Virus record (IMG/VR): IMGVR_UViG_3300017917_003570
Span: 1 to 36,066 of that record
Source of the DNA: a virus
DNA length: 36,066 nucleotides
Direction: 5' to 3' (one strand)
Shown: positions 20,520-36,066 of the stretch, piece after piece
Numbering within the stretch: position 1 is the stretch's first letter
How the letters are laid out: every line of letters begins with the position of its first letter
Notes under the pieces: model-generated
What the model was told of the DNA's origin: nothing
Seen by the model: the letters and a program-made list of their open reading frames with translations, nothing else
The model's database searches: none
Translations under genes and position numbers: made by a program

Positions 20520-21683
20520 ATGTCGTTGTCCGTCGGCTCCGTCTGTTCAGGCATTGGCGCACCGGAGTGCGCATGGGAGCCGCTGGGCTGGCGCTTCGCG
20601 TGGTCGGCTGACATTGAGCCATTCCCCAACGCCGTCCGCGCGCACCACTGGCCGCACGTCTCGAACTTGGGCGACATGACCGCCATCGCCGCCCGCATCG
20701 AAGCGGGCGAGGTCGAGGCGCCCGACGTGCTGGTGGGCGGCACCCCCTGCCAGTCCTTTTCCGTCGCCGGCCTTCGCAAGGGCCTAGCCGACGCCCGTGG
20801 CAACCTCGCGCTGGAGTTCATCCGCCTTGCTGATGCAATCGACGCTGTTCGACGCGCTGCTGGAAAGCCGGCTGCCTGGATTCTCTGGGAAAATGTCCCA
20901 GGCGTCCTCTCCGATGCCGGAAACGCCTTCGGCGCCTTCCTGGCGGGAATGGTCGGAAGCGATGCCGCCATCAGCCCGCGCGGACGGTGGACAGACGCGG
21001 GTGTGGTTCATGGACCCACGCGATGCGCCGCATGGCGCATCCTGGACGCCCAGCACGTCGGACTGGCTCAACGACGGCAGCGGGTCTTCATGCTCGCTCG
21101 CGGAGGTGCTGGAGCCTGGTCCGCCGCCGACGCGCTACTTCCTGTCATCCCGCGCGTGCGCTGGCATCCTGCGCCGCGCCGAGAAGCGCGGGAAGCAGTT
21201 GCCCGCCCAATTGCTGCGGGCTCTCCAGGCGGTAGTGGCTACCGCAACGACGCCGACACAGCCGACAACCTGATTGCGGCTTTCGGCGGCAACAACACCG
21301 CCGGGCCCATCGACGTGGCCGCCGCGCTCAACGCCTGCCCCACGGCCGCCGGGCGGCAGGACTTTGAGAGCGAGACGTTCATCACCGAGCTGGCGCCAAC
21401 CCTGCTCGCGAACGGAAAAGCCGCCGGCAGCGCGACGCAGCAGGATGCCGAGACGGAGCGGCCAGAGGGCGCCGCAGTCGGACATTTCATACCAGCCGCG
21501 ATGGCGGTGCGCCGCCTGACGCCGACCGAGTGCGAGCGGCTGCAAGGTTTCCCCGACGGCTGGACGGCCGTGACCTACCGCAACAAGCCCGCCGCCGACG
21601 GTCCGCGCTATCGCGCTCTCGGCAATTCCATGGCCGTCCCGGTCCTCGCGTGGATCGGGCGGCAGATCGAACTTTTCCGCTAA
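20520..21683 (+). CDS. DNA (cytosine-5) methyltransferase
   Basis: A 387-residue C5-MTase that transfers methyl from SAM to cytosine in a specific site. Motif I is V-C-S-G-I-G-A-P-E (residues 8-16). Motif IV is G-G-T-P-C-Q-S-F-S with catalytic C77. Motif VI is E-N-V (124-126), motif VIII Q-R-R-Q-R-V-F (184-190), and motif X G-N-S-M-A-V-P-V near the end, with L-Q-G-F-P-D before it. All needed motifs are present. As a lone phage enzyme it probably protects phage DNA from host restriction; no restriction partner is visible. An AAGGGG sits only two bases before the ATG. A second ORF is nested in another frame across residues 105-251. Confidence 0.92.
   Translation: MSLSVGSVCSGIGAPECAWEPLGWRFAWSADIEPFPNAVRAHHWPHVSNLGDMTAIAARIEAGEVEAPDVLVGGTPCQSFSVAGLRKGLADARGNLALEFIRLADAIDAVRRAAGKPAAWILWENVPGVLSDAGNAFGAFLAGMVGSDAAISPRGRWTDAGVVHGPTRCAAWRILDAQHVGLAQRRQRVFMLARGGAGAWSAADALLPVIPRVRWHPAPRREAREAVARPIAAGSPGGSGYRNDADTADNLIAAFGGNNTAGPIDVAAALNACPTAAGRQDFESETFITELAPTLLANGKAAGSATQQDAETERPEGAAVGHFIPAAMAVRRLTPTECERLQGFPDGWTAVTYRNKPAADGPRYRALGNSMAVPVLAWIGRQIELFR
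20833..21273 (+). CDS. Nested gene inside the methyltransferase (second frame)
   Basis: A 146-residue ORF lying wholly within the methyltransferase gene. Its product carries Y-F-L-S-S-R-A-C-A-G-I-L-R-R-A-E-K-R-G-K followed by Q-L-P, preceded by S-L-A-E-V-L-E-P-G. I recall that block from separate small phage proteins found with cytosine methyltransferases. So both frames appear to code. No strong ribosome site precedes the ATG at 20833; an upstream in-frame start at 20797 is possible. Function unknown, with a basic helical C terminus that could bind nucleic acid or the enzyme. Confidence rests on the motif, not on codon analysis. Confidence 0.55.
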   Translation: MQSTLFDALLESRLPGFSGKMSQASSPMPETPSAPSWREWSEAMPPSARADGGQTRVWFMDPRDAPHGASWTPSTSDWLNDGSGSSCSLAEVLEPGPPPTRYFLSSRACAGILRRAEKRGKQLPAQLLRALQAVVATATTPTQPTT

Positions 21684-22674: not shown

Positions 22675-22892
22675 GCCGGCGCCCAGTTAGGCAGCTTGGT
22701 CGGGTCGCCGCCGTCCGGGACTTCCAGACGCAGCTCGCGCACGGGCCGCCCTTCCGCGTCCCGGTCCCAATATTCGACGAACCGCCACTTCCGCCCGCCT
22801 AGAATTGCCGCTGTGCCGCGGGTGTAGTGCAGCGACGTGGTGCCGATGGTTTCCTGCCGACTGCTACCCGGAATATTGCGCACGACCTTCAT
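22671..22892 (-). CDS. Small unknown protein downstream of integrase
   Basis: A 73-residue, beta-prone protein (T-I-G-T-T-S-L-H-Y, then W-R-F-V-E-Y-W-D-R-D). Its ATG overlaps the integrase stop (ATGA at 22889-22892), so it is probably co-translated with integrase. No motif is recognised. Coupling to int might mean a role in recombination control, but nothing in the sequence proves it. Confidence 0.6.
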   Translation of the reverse strand: MKVVRNIPGSSRQETIGTTSLHYTRGTAAILGGRKWRFVEYWDRDAEGRPVRELRLEVPDGGDPTKLPNWAPA

Positions 22893-24214
22893 CCCTGATC
22901 CCCCTCCGCCGCCAGGCGCTTGCGGAAGGCGCCCTCGGCGGCCTTGGCGGTGCGGACGATGTAGTGCCGGTCCAGGATGCTGCGCACGCTCGCCGGGGTG
23001 TGGCCGGTGATGCCGGCGATGCCGTTGTCATCGACGCCCGCCTCATGCAACCGGGTCACCGCGGTGTGGCGCAATTCCATAAAGCGGAGATCCCCGCAGG
23101 CGGGCATAGGCTCCAAAGTGAAGCGGGTGAGTTGGGCGGGTGGGTTAGCCAACTCACCCGCCCGGGACAGATCGGACATATCCGACAGATCCGATCTGTC
23201 CCGTTCGATCTGCTCTCGCAACTCAATCCCTGTGGCAGCGGCGGCGCGCACTGCGCTGAAAACGTGGCGGAAGGTGTGTTCATTCCAGCGCTCGCCGGTG
23301 CCCTCATGCAGCAGCAGATACGCGCGGGCATCGGCATGCGGCAGGGCCACCACCTTGGCGGCGTCCCGCCGTGCGGCCTCGGCGCGCAGGCGCTCGACCA
23401 GGTGGGGGACCAGGTGCACGGGCAGGCTGACCAGCCGGCCCGTCTTGCCCTGGCGGATCACCAGGTTGTCGGCTTCCACCCGCCAGGGCGGCAGGCGCAG
23501 CACGTCGCCCTCGCGCTGGCCGATCCATTCGTTGAGCAGGATCGCCGTGCCCATGCTGCGCCAGCCCAGCCGATCGGCGGCCTCGGCCATGTGGCGCACG
23601 GCTTCCGGCGACCACAGCACCGGCTCCCGCGCGCGGCGCAGGCTGATGCCGGGGCGCTCGGCCGGGTTGCTGGTCAGGTAGCCGAGGCGCCGGCCCACGC
23701 CCAGCAGCAGGCGCAGCACGCGCACGGCAGCGGCGGCCTTGGCCGGGGTCTCGATCACCTGGCGCTTGCGGCCCGTGCCTTCCACGCGCCGCAGCTGGCC
23801 TTCGTAGAAAGCCTGCACCGCGGGCGGCGTGATCGCGCGGGCGGGCATGTCGCCGGCCCAGGCCTCGATCGCATCGAGTGCCCAGCCGTAGTCGCCGCGC
23901 GTCTTGGGCGCGAGCTTCGACCACCAGCGGCTGGCGCGGTAATCCTGGATCAGCGCGGCGACGCTGCCTGCCGGGTGCTTTCTGGCCCGGGCCTTGACCG
24001 GCGCCGGCGCGTTCGGCGCCACCTCGCCACGGCGCCAGGCGTCCACATCGGCATTCAGCGCCTCGGCGCGGGCGATCGCGGACTCGAGCGCATCGGGCAG
24101 GCGCTCGGGGCGCCAGCCCTCGGCGGCGAGCGCGGCGGCGGGTTGCCAGTAGTAGCGCACGCCGCCCCGCGCGCCGCGACGTTCGACCAGGTGGCGGATT
24201 TTTTTCGTGGCCAT
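22889..24214 (-). CDS. int: Tyrosine recombinase (phage integrase)
   Basis: A 441-residue integrase that joins attP with the host tRNA-Lys attB. The N-terminal 70 residues form the arm-binding region, about 83-185 the SAM-like core-binding domain, and about 200-430 the catalytic domain. Catalytic set: R234 (G-Q-R-E-G-D), K257 (Q-G-K-T-G), R382 (M-E-L-R-H-T), H405 (I-T-G-H-T) and nucleophile Y418 (D-R-H-Y-I). The usual His three residues before R382 is Met379. Residues about 332-372 are an extra segment with S-D-L/S-D-M/S-D-L repeats, encoded by two DNA hairpins. The excisionase-like gene lies just upstream. Confidence 0.92.
   Translation of the reverse strand: MATKKIRHLVERRGARGGVRYYWQPAAALAAEGWRPERLPDALESAIARAEALNADVDAWRRGEVAPNAPAPVKARARKHPAGSVAALIQDYRASRWWSKLAPKTRGDYGWALDAIEAWAGDMPARAITPPAVQAFYEGQLRRVEGTGRKRQVIETPAKAAAAVRVLRLLLGVGRRLGYLTSNPAERPGISLRRAREPVLWSPEAVRHMAEAADRLGWRSMGTAILLNEWIGQREGDVLRLPPWRVEADNLVIRQGKTGRLVSLPVHLVPHLVERLRAEAARRDAAKVVALPHADARAYLLLHEGTGERWNEHTFRHVFSAVRAAAATGIELREQIERDRSDLSDMSDLSRAGELANPPAQLTRFTLEPMPACGDLRFMELRHTAVTRLHEAGVDDNGIAGITGHTPASVRSILDRHYIVRTAKAAEGAFRKRLAAEGDQG
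23123..23202. repeat. Two adjacent perfect 13-bp hairpins inside int
   Basis: The first stem pairs 23123-23135 with 23149-23161 around a 13-base loop; the second pairs 23164-23176 with 23190-23202, also around 13 bases. Only two bases separate them. They encode residues about 338-364, in a segment absent from usual integrases just before the R382 motif. Matching stem and loop lengths suggest an inserted palindromic element kept in frame. Confidence 0.8.
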
Positions 24215-24238: not shown

Positions 24239-24505
24239 CTACGCGGCCAGGCTGGCCTGCGCACGGCGCACCAGCTCGGCCTCCATGCCCGCCAGGTCCT
24301 CGGCCGCGCGGGCCGTGGCGCTGGCGGGGTCCTGGCGCGCGATCCAGCGTTCGACCGCGGCCAGATCCCACACCGTCCCCAGCCCCGGCAGAGGCTGGGG
24401 GAAGCCGTGCTCCGCCACAAGCCGCGCGCGGCGGCAGTGGAAGGCGCGCACGGTCAGGCCGAGCAGGGCAGCCACCTGCGCCGCCCGGCCGCCGCGCGGT
24501 GTCAC
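24239..24505 (-). CDS. Excisionase-like (AlpA/MerR-type) DNA-binding protein
   Basis: An 88-residue winged-helix-type protein: A-A-Q-V-A-A-L-L-G-L-T-V-R-A-F-H near the N terminus, G-F-P-Q-P-L-P-G-L-G-T-V-W-D at the wing, and V-E-R-W-I-A. This is the form of phage excisionases and AlpA regulators. They bend att DNA and turn integrase toward excision. The GTG start at 24505 overlaps the upstream stop (GTGA). The integrase follows 24 bases downstream. Confidence 0.75.
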   Translation of the reverse strand: MTPRGGRAAQVAALLGLTVRAFHCRRARLVAEHGFPQPLPGLGTVWDLAAVERWIARQDPASATARAAEDLAGMEAELVRRAQASLAA

Positions 24506-24789
24506 GACACCACCGCGCCGACGCGGGCGAGCAGCGTCACGCCGGCCGTCGTAGCGCTGATGCAGCGGCGCCGCCGGTCCTCACCATCCGTCACGCGATC
24601 GACCAGGCGGTGATCGGCCAGCCGATCGATGGCCCGCATGACCGCCGGCTTGCTGATGCGGCAGGCGGCGGCGATATCCAGCACGGACTGGCCGGGATGG
24701 CGCTGCGCATGCAGCAGCACGGCCAGCTGGCGGAGCGTATAATCGGCGCCGGATTGCACCAGCGTCAGGCATCCATCGGCGAAGGTCAT
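24502..24789 (-). CDS. MarR-like winged-helix regulator
   Basis: A 95-residue protein with Y-T-L-R-Q-L-A-V-L-L-H-A-Q near residue 18, the recognition helix region V-L-D-I-A-A-A-C-R-I-S-K-P-A-V-M-R-A-I-D-R-L (as separate short blocks: V-L-D-I-A-A and S-K-P-A-V-M-R-A-I-D), and a wing D-G-E-D-R-R-R-R. This is the MarR-type wHTH pattern but shorter than MarR, without the dimer arms. The ATG at 24789 overlaps the upstream stop (ATGA). It may tune the integration operon; target unknown. Confidence 0.72.
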   Translation of the reverse strand: MTFADGCLTLVQSGADYTLRQLAVLLHAQRHPGQSVLDIAAACRISKPAVMRAIDRLADHRLVDRVTDGEDRRRRCISATTAGVTLLARVGAVVS

Positions 24790-25046
24790 GCCGCGGCTCC
24801 CCCGGTCACGGGCAGGCCATGGCGGCGCTGCGCGCGGGCGATGTCCAGCCGGGCGATGCCGGCGGGCAGCGTGCCGCAAAGCGGCGGCGGCACGGGCTGG
24901 TCCTCCATGGCAGCGACCTGCGCGGCCAGCGTGCGGAACTCGGCGGACAGCAGCTGCGCCACCCGCGGTTCCATCACCGTGGGGGTGCGCTCGGCCCCCC
25001 AACAGGCGAAGTATTCGGCGAAATTCGCCAGTTGCGTCGATACCAT
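24786..25046 (-). CDS. Unknown first protein of the integration operon
   Basis: An 86-residue protein. ATG 25046 is chosen because GGAGG lies about nine bases upstream; an in-frame ATG at 25106 would fall within the promoter and operator. A helical N terminus (L-A-N-F-A-E-Y-F-A-C-W-G) and a Pro-rich middle (Q-P-V-P-P-P-L-C-G) are visible. No family recognised. It overlaps the MarR-like gene by ATGA. Confidence 0.55.
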   Translation of the reverse strand: MVSTQLANFAEYFACWGAERTPTVMEPRVAQLLSAEFRTLAAQVAAMEDQPVPPPLCGTLPAGIARLDIARAQRRHGLPVTGGAAA

Positions 25047-25077
25047 TTCTGCCCCGCCTCCATTCCGGGTGGCGGGA

Positions 25078-25106
25078 AGATAACTCCGAAAATCTGAGTA
25101 ATGCAA
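25078..25106 (-). promoter_or_regulatory. Promoter of the integration operon
   Basis: On the minus strand a -35 TTGCAT (25101-25106) and a -10 TTATCT (25078-25083) are set exactly 17 bp apart. The spacer holds operator copy A (25084-25098). The first gene starts at 25046. The layout repeats that at 25807-25835, so the same repressor probably silences both. Confidence 0.6.
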
Positions 25107-25129
25107 GAAGAGAATTCAGAAAAACGGAA
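25084..25129. promoter_or_regulatory. Repressor operator sites A and B
   Basis: Site A (25084-25098, CTCCGAAAATCTGAG) and site B (25115-25129, inverse strand TTCCGTTTTTCTGAA) both fit YTCCG-N5-CTGAR. Site A fills the promoter spacer; B is 31 bp upstream. The same motif occurs twice at the repressor/Cro promoter region. Confidence 0.65.
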
Positions 25130-25138
25130 CCGCCAAGA

Positions 25139-25405
25139 TCACCGGCAATCGAACTGTATGGATCCGATGCCGAAGGTGCGCTGCTGGCCGGTCATGTAGG
25201 GCTGGCGACCATGCCGCTGACAATGCTCCGCAGCCACAGGCGCCAGCAGCGACGGATTGGTCAATGCCCGGTCATATTCGATCACGATCTGAGACGGCGT
25301 GGCGTTGATGACAGCATAAGAGCCGCCCCACGTTAACGGAGCGCAGGCCGACGTACCAATGCAGGCGGCGAAGAACAGCGATCGCAGCGAAGGCCGCGGC
25401 GCCAT
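25139..25405 (-). CDS. Small lipoprotein next to the repressor (possible lysogenic conversion gene)
   Basis: An 88-residue secreted protein. The N terminus R-P-S-L-R-S-L-F-F-A-A-C-I-G-T-S-A-C has a signal peptide and a lipobox-like S-A-C, giving Cys21. The mature part has Y-A-V-I-N-A-T-P, I-V-I-E-Y-D and a C-terminal F-D-C-R, and two Cys could pair. Similar small lipoproteins occur in bacterial genomes. It starts three bases after the repressor stop, so it should be made with the repressor in lysogens. A superinfection-exclusion or host-fitness role is an inference. Confidence 0.65.
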   Translation of the reverse strand: MAPRPSLRSLFFAACIGTSACAPLTWGGSYAVINATPSQIVIEYDRALTNPSLLAPVAAEHCQRHGRQPYMTGQQRTFGIGSIQFDCR

Positions 25406-25408
25406 CGC

Positions 25409-25774
25409 TTATTTCGCCGCGCGCCGAGGCGCCGGCGTGGCAGCGGGCGCGGCGTCCGCCAGATGCTGGCTGATGCGTTCCCGGACATCCCACCGAAGCG
25501 CGCCATCGACGCCGTAAAACACAAAATCCGAAGTGACCTGCAGGATCGGCAGGATGCGGCCGAGCTGGTCCACGCGCGGGCGATTTGCCCCTCCCTCCCA
25601 GTTGGCCAGCGTGGATGTGCTCAGACCCGCGGCATTCGCCAGCGCGGTGGGAGAAAGACCGGCCGCCAGGCGGGCAGCAACAAGCCGGCGCCCCACCGCG
25701 ACGAGATCGAGCGCCGCCAGTTCAAGGTCGCGGCCAGTGCGCACATCAATCATGCGAATAATGATAGCACTCAT
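25409..25774 (-). CDS. XRE-family repressor (CI-like)
   Basis: A 121-residue repressor. The HTH_XRE domain spans about residues 25-88: V-G-R-R-L-V-A-A-R-L-A-A-G-L-S, then A-L-A-N-A-A-G-L-S-T-S-T-L-A-N-W-E. The C-terminal part is short and Ala/Pro-rich with no S24 peptidase domain, so classical RecA-stimulated self-cleavage is not expected. The ATG at 25774 is chosen; an in-frame ATG at 25753 is possible. It diverges from a Cro-like gene across two operator sites, the standard switch layout. Confidence 0.78.
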   Translation of the reverse strand: MSAIIIRMIDVRTGRDLELAALDLVAVGRRLVAARLAAGLSPTALANAAGLSTSTLANWEGGANRPRVDQLGRILPILQVTSDFVFYGVDGALRWDVRERISQHLADAAPAATPAPRRAAK

Positions 25775-25789
25775 GCCGCCTGAACTCCG

Positions 25790-25829
25790 CTCAGCAGAAC
25801 GGAAGCTTGACATCTTCCGAAATTCTGAG
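25790..25829. promoter_or_regulatory. Repressor operator sites D and C
   Basis: Site D (25790-25804, inverse strand TTCCGTTCTGCTGAG) and site C (25815-25829, TTCCGAAATTCTGAG) share the YTCCG-N5-CTGAR motif with sites A and B. They lie between divergent repressor and Cro-like genes, 25 bp centre to centre. C fills the early promoter spacer; D sits before the repressor start and could autoregulate it. Confidence 0.7.
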
Positions 25830-25835
25830 CAAGCC
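25807..25835 (+). promoter_or_regulatory. Early rightward promoter (PR-like)
   Basis: A perfect -35 TTGACA (25807-25812) is followed by a 17-bp spacer that contains operator C. The -10 position (25830-25835, CAAGCC) matches the consensus poorly, so activity may be weak or need a host factor. The Cro-like gene starts at 25843, allowing only a very short leader. Confidence 0.5.
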
Positions 25836-25842
25836 TCCCGCC

Positions 25843-26139
25843 ATGGCGTCCCTTCCCTCCGCGTCGGACCTGCGCGCCGTGGTCAAGGCCCTTGGCGGCC
25901 CGGGCGTGGTCGCGCGCGCCCTCGGCACCTCGGGCCCCAATGTCGGCAACTGGCAGATCGCCGGCGAGGTGGCGGCCAGCTGGCGGCTGGAATTCTGGCG
26001 GCTGTGCGCGGCGCGTGGCATCGCGTGGCATCCCCCCGGCTTCGAGACCGTCAGGCTCGTCGTGACGGAAGCCGCAACGGTCCCGCGCGATTGTGGCGAA
26101 ACAACGGAGCCCCTTTCGCAACCGGGGCGCGCGGCATGA
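25843..26139 (+). CDS. Cro-like helix-turn-helix protein
   Basis: A 98-residue protein. L-G-G-P-G-V-V-A-R-A-L-G-T-S-G-P-N-V-G-N-W-Q near residues 17-37 (helix, turn, recognition helix) has the form of YdaS/Cro-type regulators. W-R-L-E-F-W-R-L-C-A-A-R-G-I-A-W-H and P-P-G-F-E follow, also typical. It is the first gene under the early promoter and opposes the repressor. A TTG start at 25807 is in frame but coincides with the -35 box. The stop overlaps the next ATG. Confidence 0.75.
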   Translation: MASLPSASDLRAVVKALGGPGVVARALGTSGPNVGNWQIAGEVAASWRLEFWRLCAARGIAWHPPGFETVRLVVTEAATVPRDCGETTEPLSQPGRAA

Positions 26140-35016: not shown

Positions 35017-36066
35017 ATGCCAGAACGCGACATCGAGCAGCTGATCAAGCGCGCCCAGCGCGCGCGCGACAAGCGCGACGCCTTCGCCACCATGATGCGC
35101 GACGTGTTCCGCTACGCCATGCCGGAACGTGACGGCTGGGCCGGCTACGGCTACGGCCAGGACCGCCGCGTGGCGGTGTGGGACAGCACGGCGACCGTCG
35201 CCGCGGCGCGCTTCGCCAACCGGGTGCAGCAGAACCTGGTGCCCGCCAGCCAACGCTGGGCGCGCCTGGCCCTGCCGCCGGAACTGGCCGATGTGGAGGC
35301 GGCGCAGGCGCTTCAGGTCGATCTGGAATTGCTGAGCGAGCGGCTGTTCCGCCACGTCCACACCAGCAATTTCGACCAGGTCGCGCAGGAATGGGCGCAG
35401 GATTTGGCCGCCGGCACCGCCGCCATCCTGGTGGAGAACGGACGCCATGCGCAGCGCCGCCGCGCCGGCCCGCTGCTGCGCTTCCAGGCCGTGCCGTCTT
35501 CCCGCATCGCCTTCGATGAAGGCCCCTTCGGGCGGGTCGAGGGCGTGTTCTACGACCAGTGCCTGCCGGCCCGCATCGTCGAGCGCACCTATCCCGACGC
35601 CAAGCTGCCCGAGGCCATCACGAAGGCCGCGCGCGACGAGCCGGAGAAGGAAATCTCCCTGCTGCAGGCCACCTATTACGACGCGGCCGAGCATGAATGG
35701 TCCTTCGAGGTCATCCACGAGGAGACCAAGCAATGCCTGCTCGAACGCAGCTATCGCACCAACCCCTGGATCGTGACGCGCTGGATCAAGGCGCCGGGCG
35801 AGACCCATGGCCGCGGCCCGCTGACCCAGGCGCTGCCCGATATCCGGATGCTGAACTACCTGGCCGAACGCGCCGCGCTGGCCGCGGGCTTCGCCACCGA
35901 GGGCGCGTGGACGGTGACCGATGACGGGGTGACCAACCCCGACACGGTCAAGATCGCCCCCGGCGCCATCATCCCGGTGATGAGCAATGGCGGGCCGCGC
36001 GGTCCATCGCTGGCGCCGTTGCAGATGCCCGGCAACTTCCAGCTCAACGAGATGATCCGGAAGGAC
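35017..36066 (+). CDS. Portal (head-tail connector) protein, N-terminal part
   Basis: The first 350 codons of the portal gene, which continues in frame at base 100 of the window. Signature blocks: R-D-V-F-R-Y-A-M-P-E-R near residue 28, V-W-D-S-T-A-T-V-A-A-A-R-F-A-N-R-V-Q near 53-70, L-A-A-G-T-A-A-I-L-V-E, and G-R-G-P-L-T-Q-A-L-P-D-I near 270. All fit T7 gp8-like connectors. The start is ATG 35017, three bases after the preceding stop. Confidence 0.93.
   Translation, partial: MPERDIEQLIKRAQRARDKRDAFATMMRDVFRYAMPERDGWAGYGYGQDRRVAVWDSTATVAAARFANRVQQNLVPASQRWARLALPPELADVEAAQALQVDLELLSERLFRHVHTSNFDQVAQEWAQDLAAGTAAILVENGRHAQRRRAGPLLRFQAVPSSRIAFDEGPFGRVEGVFYDQCLPARIVERTYPDAKLPEAITKAARDEPEKEISLLQATYYDAAEHEWSFEVIHEETKQCLLERSYRTNPWIVTRWIKAPGETHGRGPLTQALPDIRMLNYLAERAALAAGFATEGAWTVTDDGVTNPDTVKIAPGAIIPVMSNGGPRGPSLAPLQMPGNFQLNEMIRKD
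35968..36066. repeat. Terminal direct repeat, right copy
   Basis: Exact copy of bases 1-99. Remove one copy to obtain the circular map. Confidence 0.95.

Follow-up and report, generated by a model that had tools for sequence, protein, structure and literature searches.

Operators of one family in the leftward and rightward early promoters point to a lambda-like immunity region in a temperate phage

The window, i.e. the whole stretch of DNA analyzed here, is a viral record of 36,066 nt with a 99-bp direct terminal repeat (1–99 and 35968–36066), and because of this repeat the record is probably a complete, circularly assembled phage genome. The relatives of the phage are prophages in Acetobacteraceae, and its host is probably a member of that family. 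Two operator clusters belonging to a single family stand on either side of its cI gene, with the gene order OL-PL-int, rex position, cI, and OR-PR-cro. An ORF elsewhere in the record (20520–21683, plus strand) reads like a DNA cytosine methyltransferase, as judged by eye. The region was compared across 12 immunity regions, namely those of the window, L005 (IMGVR_UViG_3300044940_000274), L006 (IMGVR_UViG_3300045136_000451), L027 (IMGVR_UViG_3300045922_000692), L028 (a prophage of Roseococcus thiosulfatophilus RB-3), and L054–L060 (genomes of the same family). The features of the locus in the window are:

22889–24214, minus strand: tyrosine integrase, the last identified gene of the leftward operon (phrog_1, E 3e-18; 51–65% identical in L005, L006, L028, and L054)
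24239–24505, minus strand: small protein weakly similar to the excisionase/regulator family phrog_66 (E 0.001), directly upstream of int
24502–24798, minus strand: MarR-like winged-helix protein of the leftward operon (Pfam MarR_2, E 8e-14)
24786–25046, minus strand: first gene of the leftward operon, 86 aa, without assigned function, homologous in L005, L006, and L054
25078–25106, minus strand: core of promoter PL by direct reading, with −35 TTGCAT (25101–25106), a 17-bp spacer (25084–25100), and −10 TTATCT (25078–25083)
25084–25098, plus strand: predicted operator OL1, CTCCGAAAATCTGAG, an exact motif match within the PL spacer, with a cognate dyad at the same position in 8 relatives
25115–25129, minus strand: predicted partner operator OL2, TTCCGTTTTTCTGAA, an exact match 31 bp (three helical turns) from OL1
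25139–25405, minus strand: small ORF with a lipoprotein-like product, lying between cI and OL in the "rex" position (ORF reading)
25409–25774, minus strand: short CI-type repressor of 121 aa (Pfam HTH_31, E 4e-10; HTH_3, E 6e-7)
25770–25784, minus strand: weak candidate operator OR3, TTCAGGCGGCATGAG, 45 bp from OR1
25790–25804, minus strand: predicted operator OR2, TTCCGTTCTGCTGAG, an exact match 25 bp from OR1
25807–25835, plus strand: core of promoter PR by direct reading, with −35 TTGACA (25807–25812), a 17-bp spacer, and the nonconsensus CAAGCC at the −10 position
25815–25829, plus strand: predicted operator OR1, TTCCGAAATTCTGAG, an exact match starting 2 bp (TC) past TTGACA, with the equivalent position occupied by a cognate dyad in the other 11 immunity regions
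25843–26139, plus strand: Cro/YdaS-like DNA-binding protein, the first rightward early gene (phrog_8008, E 3e-6; weak YdaS/P22_Cro), with homologues at the equivalent position of the other 11 immunity regions

On the left side, the −10 of PL is followed by a ribosome site (GGAGG, 25057–25061) and then by the ATG at 25046, and the genes of the leftward operon (86-aa, MarR-like, excisionase-like, and integrase) overlap or almost touch. No homologue of the MarR-like gene was found in L005 or L006, which have other small genes there instead. The left operator overlaps the promoter of the int-containing operon, an arrangement common to the window, L005, L006, L028, and L054. A first-pass annotation of this DNA had described an operator that exactly fills the gap between the −35 and −10 of an "integration promoter." The TTGCAT and TTATCT hexamers, the 17-bp spacer, and the site inside it are as described, but the site takes up 15 of the 17 bp. 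The promoter does lie ahead of the int operon, but leftward early promoter, PL, is the better name because it also drives the three small genes before int.

The inverted partner site that had been pointed out in each region is real and partly conserved among the relatives. Specifically, the distance from the leftward spacer site to its upstream partner is 31 bp in the window and in L027, 33 bp in L006, and 32 bp in L028. In further relatives the spacing is 33 bp (L054), 31 bp (L057), and 32 bp (L058), with a weak site at 31 bp in L055, while no upstream partner of the leftward spacer site was found in L005. Pairs of the OL1/OL2 type are three helical turns apart, with one site on each side of the −35. 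A terminator-like hairpin (25128–25150, minus strand) stands 3′ of the 25139–25405 ORF, and its T-tail overlaps OL2. Given this overlap, the cI transcript may end just ahead of PL.

The protein encoded at 25409–25774 has the Cro/C1-type HTH fold of the short HTH_3/XRE phage repressors. Its profile matches ImmR of ICEBs1, P22 C2, and P2 C when compared with solved structures (PDB), and its predicted model (mean pLDDT of 80) has disordered residues 1–9 followed by an HTH, short helices, and a disordered tail. The model also resembles C.AhdI, C.BclI, 434 Cro, and P22 C2, albeit weakly (Foldseek E no better than 0.005). Pfam finds the HTH only, with no C-terminal dimerization or autocleavage (peptidase S24) domain in the 121 residues, which makes lambda-type SOS cleavage of this repressor unlikely. 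The start of the protein may be the second ATG, at 25753, rather than the one at 25774. The window, L005, and L028 share TATCAT-N7-ATG before cI, which suggests a leaderless cI message that would begin at this second methionine. The neighboring ORF in the rex position has no family match in Pfam and PHROG searches, and L005, L006, and L027 are without a gene there; a role of the lipoprotein-like product in superinfection exclusion is possible.

On the right, cro is divergent and its promoter overlaps the right operator. The −35 of this promoter is clear, while a −10 is not recognizable in the window. Here the first-pass annotation had again placed one copy of the motif in the promoter spacer: TTGACA and the site at 25815–25829 are both present, but CAAGCC at the −10 position matches TATAAT at only 1 of 6 positions. 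An automatic sigma-70 scan returns no promoter at PR, a scan that is blind to promoters of both the PL and PR type in this phage. The cro ATG (25843 in the window) lies 36–39 nt past the first T of the −35 and lacks a ribosome site in the window, L005, L006, and L027 alike. The cro message is leaderless by appearance, and L056 has TATGAT-N7-ATG ahead of cro. The TTG at 25807 was considered as an in-frame cro start and rejected, as this TTGACA has a counterpart in L005 that is not in frame. The weak site at 25770–25784, which was absent from the earlier list, falls within the spacer of what is presumed to be the cI promoter, the −10 of which (TATCAT, 25761–25766) ends 7 nt before the ATG at 25753. 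A site at the OR3 position, 44–45 bp from OR1, is also found in L005 (449–463) and L027.

The 36-kb phage harbors four exact copies of YTCCG-N5-CTGAR, all inside 746 bp—i.e. 25084–25098 (plus), 25115–25129 (minus), 25790–25804 (minus), and 25815–25829 (plus)—with the coordinates and orientations originally given. A scan of the whole 36,066-nt record yields no fifth exact match, and the many random matches elsewhere that would have counted against the proposal are absent for the exact motif. By comparison, 100 dinucleotide shuffles of the record give a mean of 0.45 matches (maximum of 3), and the 4.1-Mb Roseococcus genome with a related prophage contains 30, or ~0.26 per 36 kb. When 2 mismatches are permitted, the motif is not enriched (114 vs. 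123 expected), so the strict motif alone carries weight. Furthermore, the consensus was drawn up after the sites had been seen, and as such it needs an independent test. Together with the overlap of one partner site with the terminator T-tail, these two points speak for a chance origin, in which near-palindromes are common in GC-rich sequence and the consensus was fitted to four accidental matches. We regard this explanation as extremely improbable, given that the positions of the sites are conserved in 12 immunity regions and that a matrix derived independently from L005 places the same four sites at the top of 36,052 positions.

That matrix was built from the two spacer sites of L005 only. 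In this relative, the repressor shares 70% and the integrase 51% identity with the respective window protein, and the arrangement is the same. Its cro-side promoter reads TTGACA-CG-TTCCGGATTTCTGAG and its int-operon promoter TTGAGC-G-TTCAGAATATCTGAG-A-TAGGAT, both with the dyad in the spacer. The four sites of the window rank 1–4 with this matrix, which is a noncircular confirmation of them, and the OR3 candidate ranks about 6 of 36,052. When the comparison is turned around, a scan of L005 puts its PR and PL sites first and the presumed cI-promoter site third. The operator common to both phages takes the form of an imperfect 15-bp dyad, TTCNG-N5-CNGAA.

Relatives with other repressors have other operators in the same places. 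L006 carries the dyad TACAG-N5-CTGTA behind the −35 of PL and PR, and L027 carries TACAC-N5-GTGTR behind the −35 of both promoters. L005, L006, and L027 have nearly the same leftward-operon starts and Cro HTHs that are 83–89% identical, while their repressor HTHs share 20–50% identity and their operators are three different ones. The window and L005, by contrast, have the same operator and repressor HTHs that are 84% identical, with Cro HTHs only 34% identical. The operator therefore goes with the repressor and not with Cro, since L005 and the window share both repressor type and operator, whereas L005, L006, and L027 share Cro yet differ in repressor and operator. This comparison backs the initial proposal that one operator family lies in both promoters and is read by the 25409–25774 repressor. 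The corresponding segments of L005 (385–885), L006 (2260–2850), and L027 (5470–6000) look like natural immunity variants in almost identical flanking DNA, with the exchanged segment running approximately from the PR spacer to the PL spacer.

Across the survey, a 15- or 16-bp dyad stands behind a TTG −35 in PR in all 12 regions, and in PL in 9 of the 9 regions where this promoter was located. A TTG lies 15–18 nt upstream of the dyad center for 21 of 21 spacer dyads, compared with 4.9% in the background; some of the dyads of distant relatives had been chosen by eye before this count, and an unguided test was therefore added. In this search for dyads shared between the 75 nt upstream of cro and 200 nt on the PL side, 8 of 9 loci reach significance (P < 0.05; Fisher P ~ 1e-8). 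The search missed the L028 site, and in L057, whose leftward site is poor, it returned a pair that differs from the one chosen by eye. At more distant cro-like loci, L023 (5900–5990; TTGACA-18-TTTAAT) has the PR-spacer dyad TTCAT-GCCAC-TTGAA and L024 (5930–6003; TTGACT-18-TATACT) has TTCAA-GTGGC-TTGAA. From these two loci, the spacer-dyad arrangement may be wider than this phage group.

We find a significant and positive correlation between the similarity of the repressor recognition helix and that of the operator half-sites (Mantel r = 0.42, P = 0.002). The similarity of the Cro HTH also correlates with that of the operators, more weakly (r = 0.36, P = 0.02), and repressor and Cro similarity are not correlated with each other among the 12 regions; these regions are few, and the Mantel correlations serve as supporting evidence only. 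Because of the Cro correlation, Cro very probably uses the same sites as the repressor. One could go further and view the sites mainly as Cro operators, read by the 25843–26139 protein instead of the repressor. Cro and CI normally share operators, and L005 differs from L006/L027 in the recognition-helix residue P/Q, which together with the weak correlation would suit such a view. It is nevertheless very improbable, as the window and L005 keep one operator despite their divergent Cro HTHs, and the near-identical Cro HTHs of L005, L006, and L027 go with three operators.

The MarR-like (24502–24798) or excisionase-like (24239–24505) protein could also be imagined to bind the sites, resulting in autoregulation of the int operon with cross-talk to PR, and a MarR-type wing-HTH is indeed encoded in the operon that PL controls. 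However, L005 keeps the operators without a MarR-like homologue, and L006 has a leftward-operon start and a cro nearly like those of L005 with different operators, so that we consider this proposal very unlikely indeed.

The analysis directly establishes that the sites exist, where they lie, that they are conserved, and that they vary together with the repressor. Their best explanation is, very probably on the basis of the sequence comparisons, a lambda-like immunity region of a temperate phage in which the repressor binds 15-bp dyads in the PL and PR spacers and shuts both operons. Specifically, the 121-aa HTH repressor would bind as a dimer to TTCNG-N5-CNGAA dyads, and as OL1 and OR1 cover the DNA between −35 and −10, repressor and RNA polymerase would be mutually exclusive. 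With a spacing of 31 bp on the left (OL2 upstream of OL1) and 25 bp on the right (OR2 to OR1), the partner sites probably add cooperative binding, and the weak OR3 in the cI promoter may provide autoregulation. In a lysogen, the repressor would then silence the leftward operon (three small genes and the integrase) and the cro-led early operon together, and its loss would open both. The joint shut-off of int and the early genes by a single repressor, as first proposed, is well supported by what the relatives show, and its logic is that of lambda.

In lambda, the same repressor blocks the leftward (int) and rightward promoters (PMC6022878), and of its three right-hand sites OR3 lies over PRM and gives autorepression (PMC3708714). 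As in lambda, cI of the window stands between two operator clusters, with int in the leftward early operon and cro in the rightward one, and a gene in the rex position. A weak candidate for a third right-hand site is located over the presumed cI promoter. Unlike in lambda, the repressor is a 121-aa HTH protein without a cleavage domain, two left sites only were found, 31 bp apart, three small genes and ~0.8 kb separate int from PL, and no N or CII was recognized in the window. The window repressor would work like lambda CI but is outside the lambda CI protein family.

Immunity swaps such as imm434 and imm21 are found among lambdoid phages. L005, L006, and L027 are likewise heteroimmune cassettes in a shared backbone, though as natural metagenomic variants that were compared in silico only. 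In the switch regions of phage TP901-1 and Staphylococcus phage 13, CI has several palindromic sites whose half-sites are short (PMC8516035). The window resembles them in its several palindromic repressor sites with short half-sites, but their OR, OL, and OD are placed around cI and mor, whereas in the window cI lies between the two clusters, the left of which controls the int operon. In Cluster A mycobacteriophages (L5 and Bxb1), operator and repressor have diverged together, and the operator sequence delimits the immunity groups (PMC6550527). The operator sequence varies with the repressor here as well; however, those phages carry 20–30 mostly asymmetric stoperators genome-wide, and the sites of the window are confined to the immunity region.

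Searches of phage and plasmid records with the repressor gave no relative, a DNA search of phage records gave no match to the region, and nothing was found with the repressor alignment against genome contigs. Cro and the first leftward gene retrieved no viral relative when used as single-sequence queries; alignments later did. A scan of viral contigs with an extended right-operator pattern returned L005 and also L014, L015, L017, and L018; these last four show no immunity-gene homologues, and their matches are read as chance. A literature search for operators of Acetobacteraceae or Roseomonas phages returned nothing relevant.

The silencing of int and the early genes by one repressor through OL and OR is textbook lambda logic and not a new principle. 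What is new is the assignment in a group for which the searches gave no annotated phage relative of this region, together with the rule that the operator lies in both spacers and is linked to the repressor. Operators, promoters, and a repressor are hereby assigned in a phage group for which the phage collection searched holds no relative of the region. The rule is testable—i.e. the repressor type predicts the operator, and the operator sits in the PL and PR spacers—and L005, L006, and L027 are natural heteroimmune variants suited to specificity tests. More tentatively, and with slightly less than even confidence, we suggest that OL-cI-OR is a specificity cassette swapped en bloc while the promoter scaffold stays fixed, with the dyad always behind the −35 of PL and PR and a further left site upstream at a distance of three helical turns, such that two repressor dimers would bracket the −35 of the integration operon. 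If this is true, the operators, and hence the immunity groups, would be readable from the sequence of any member, even in metagenomes.
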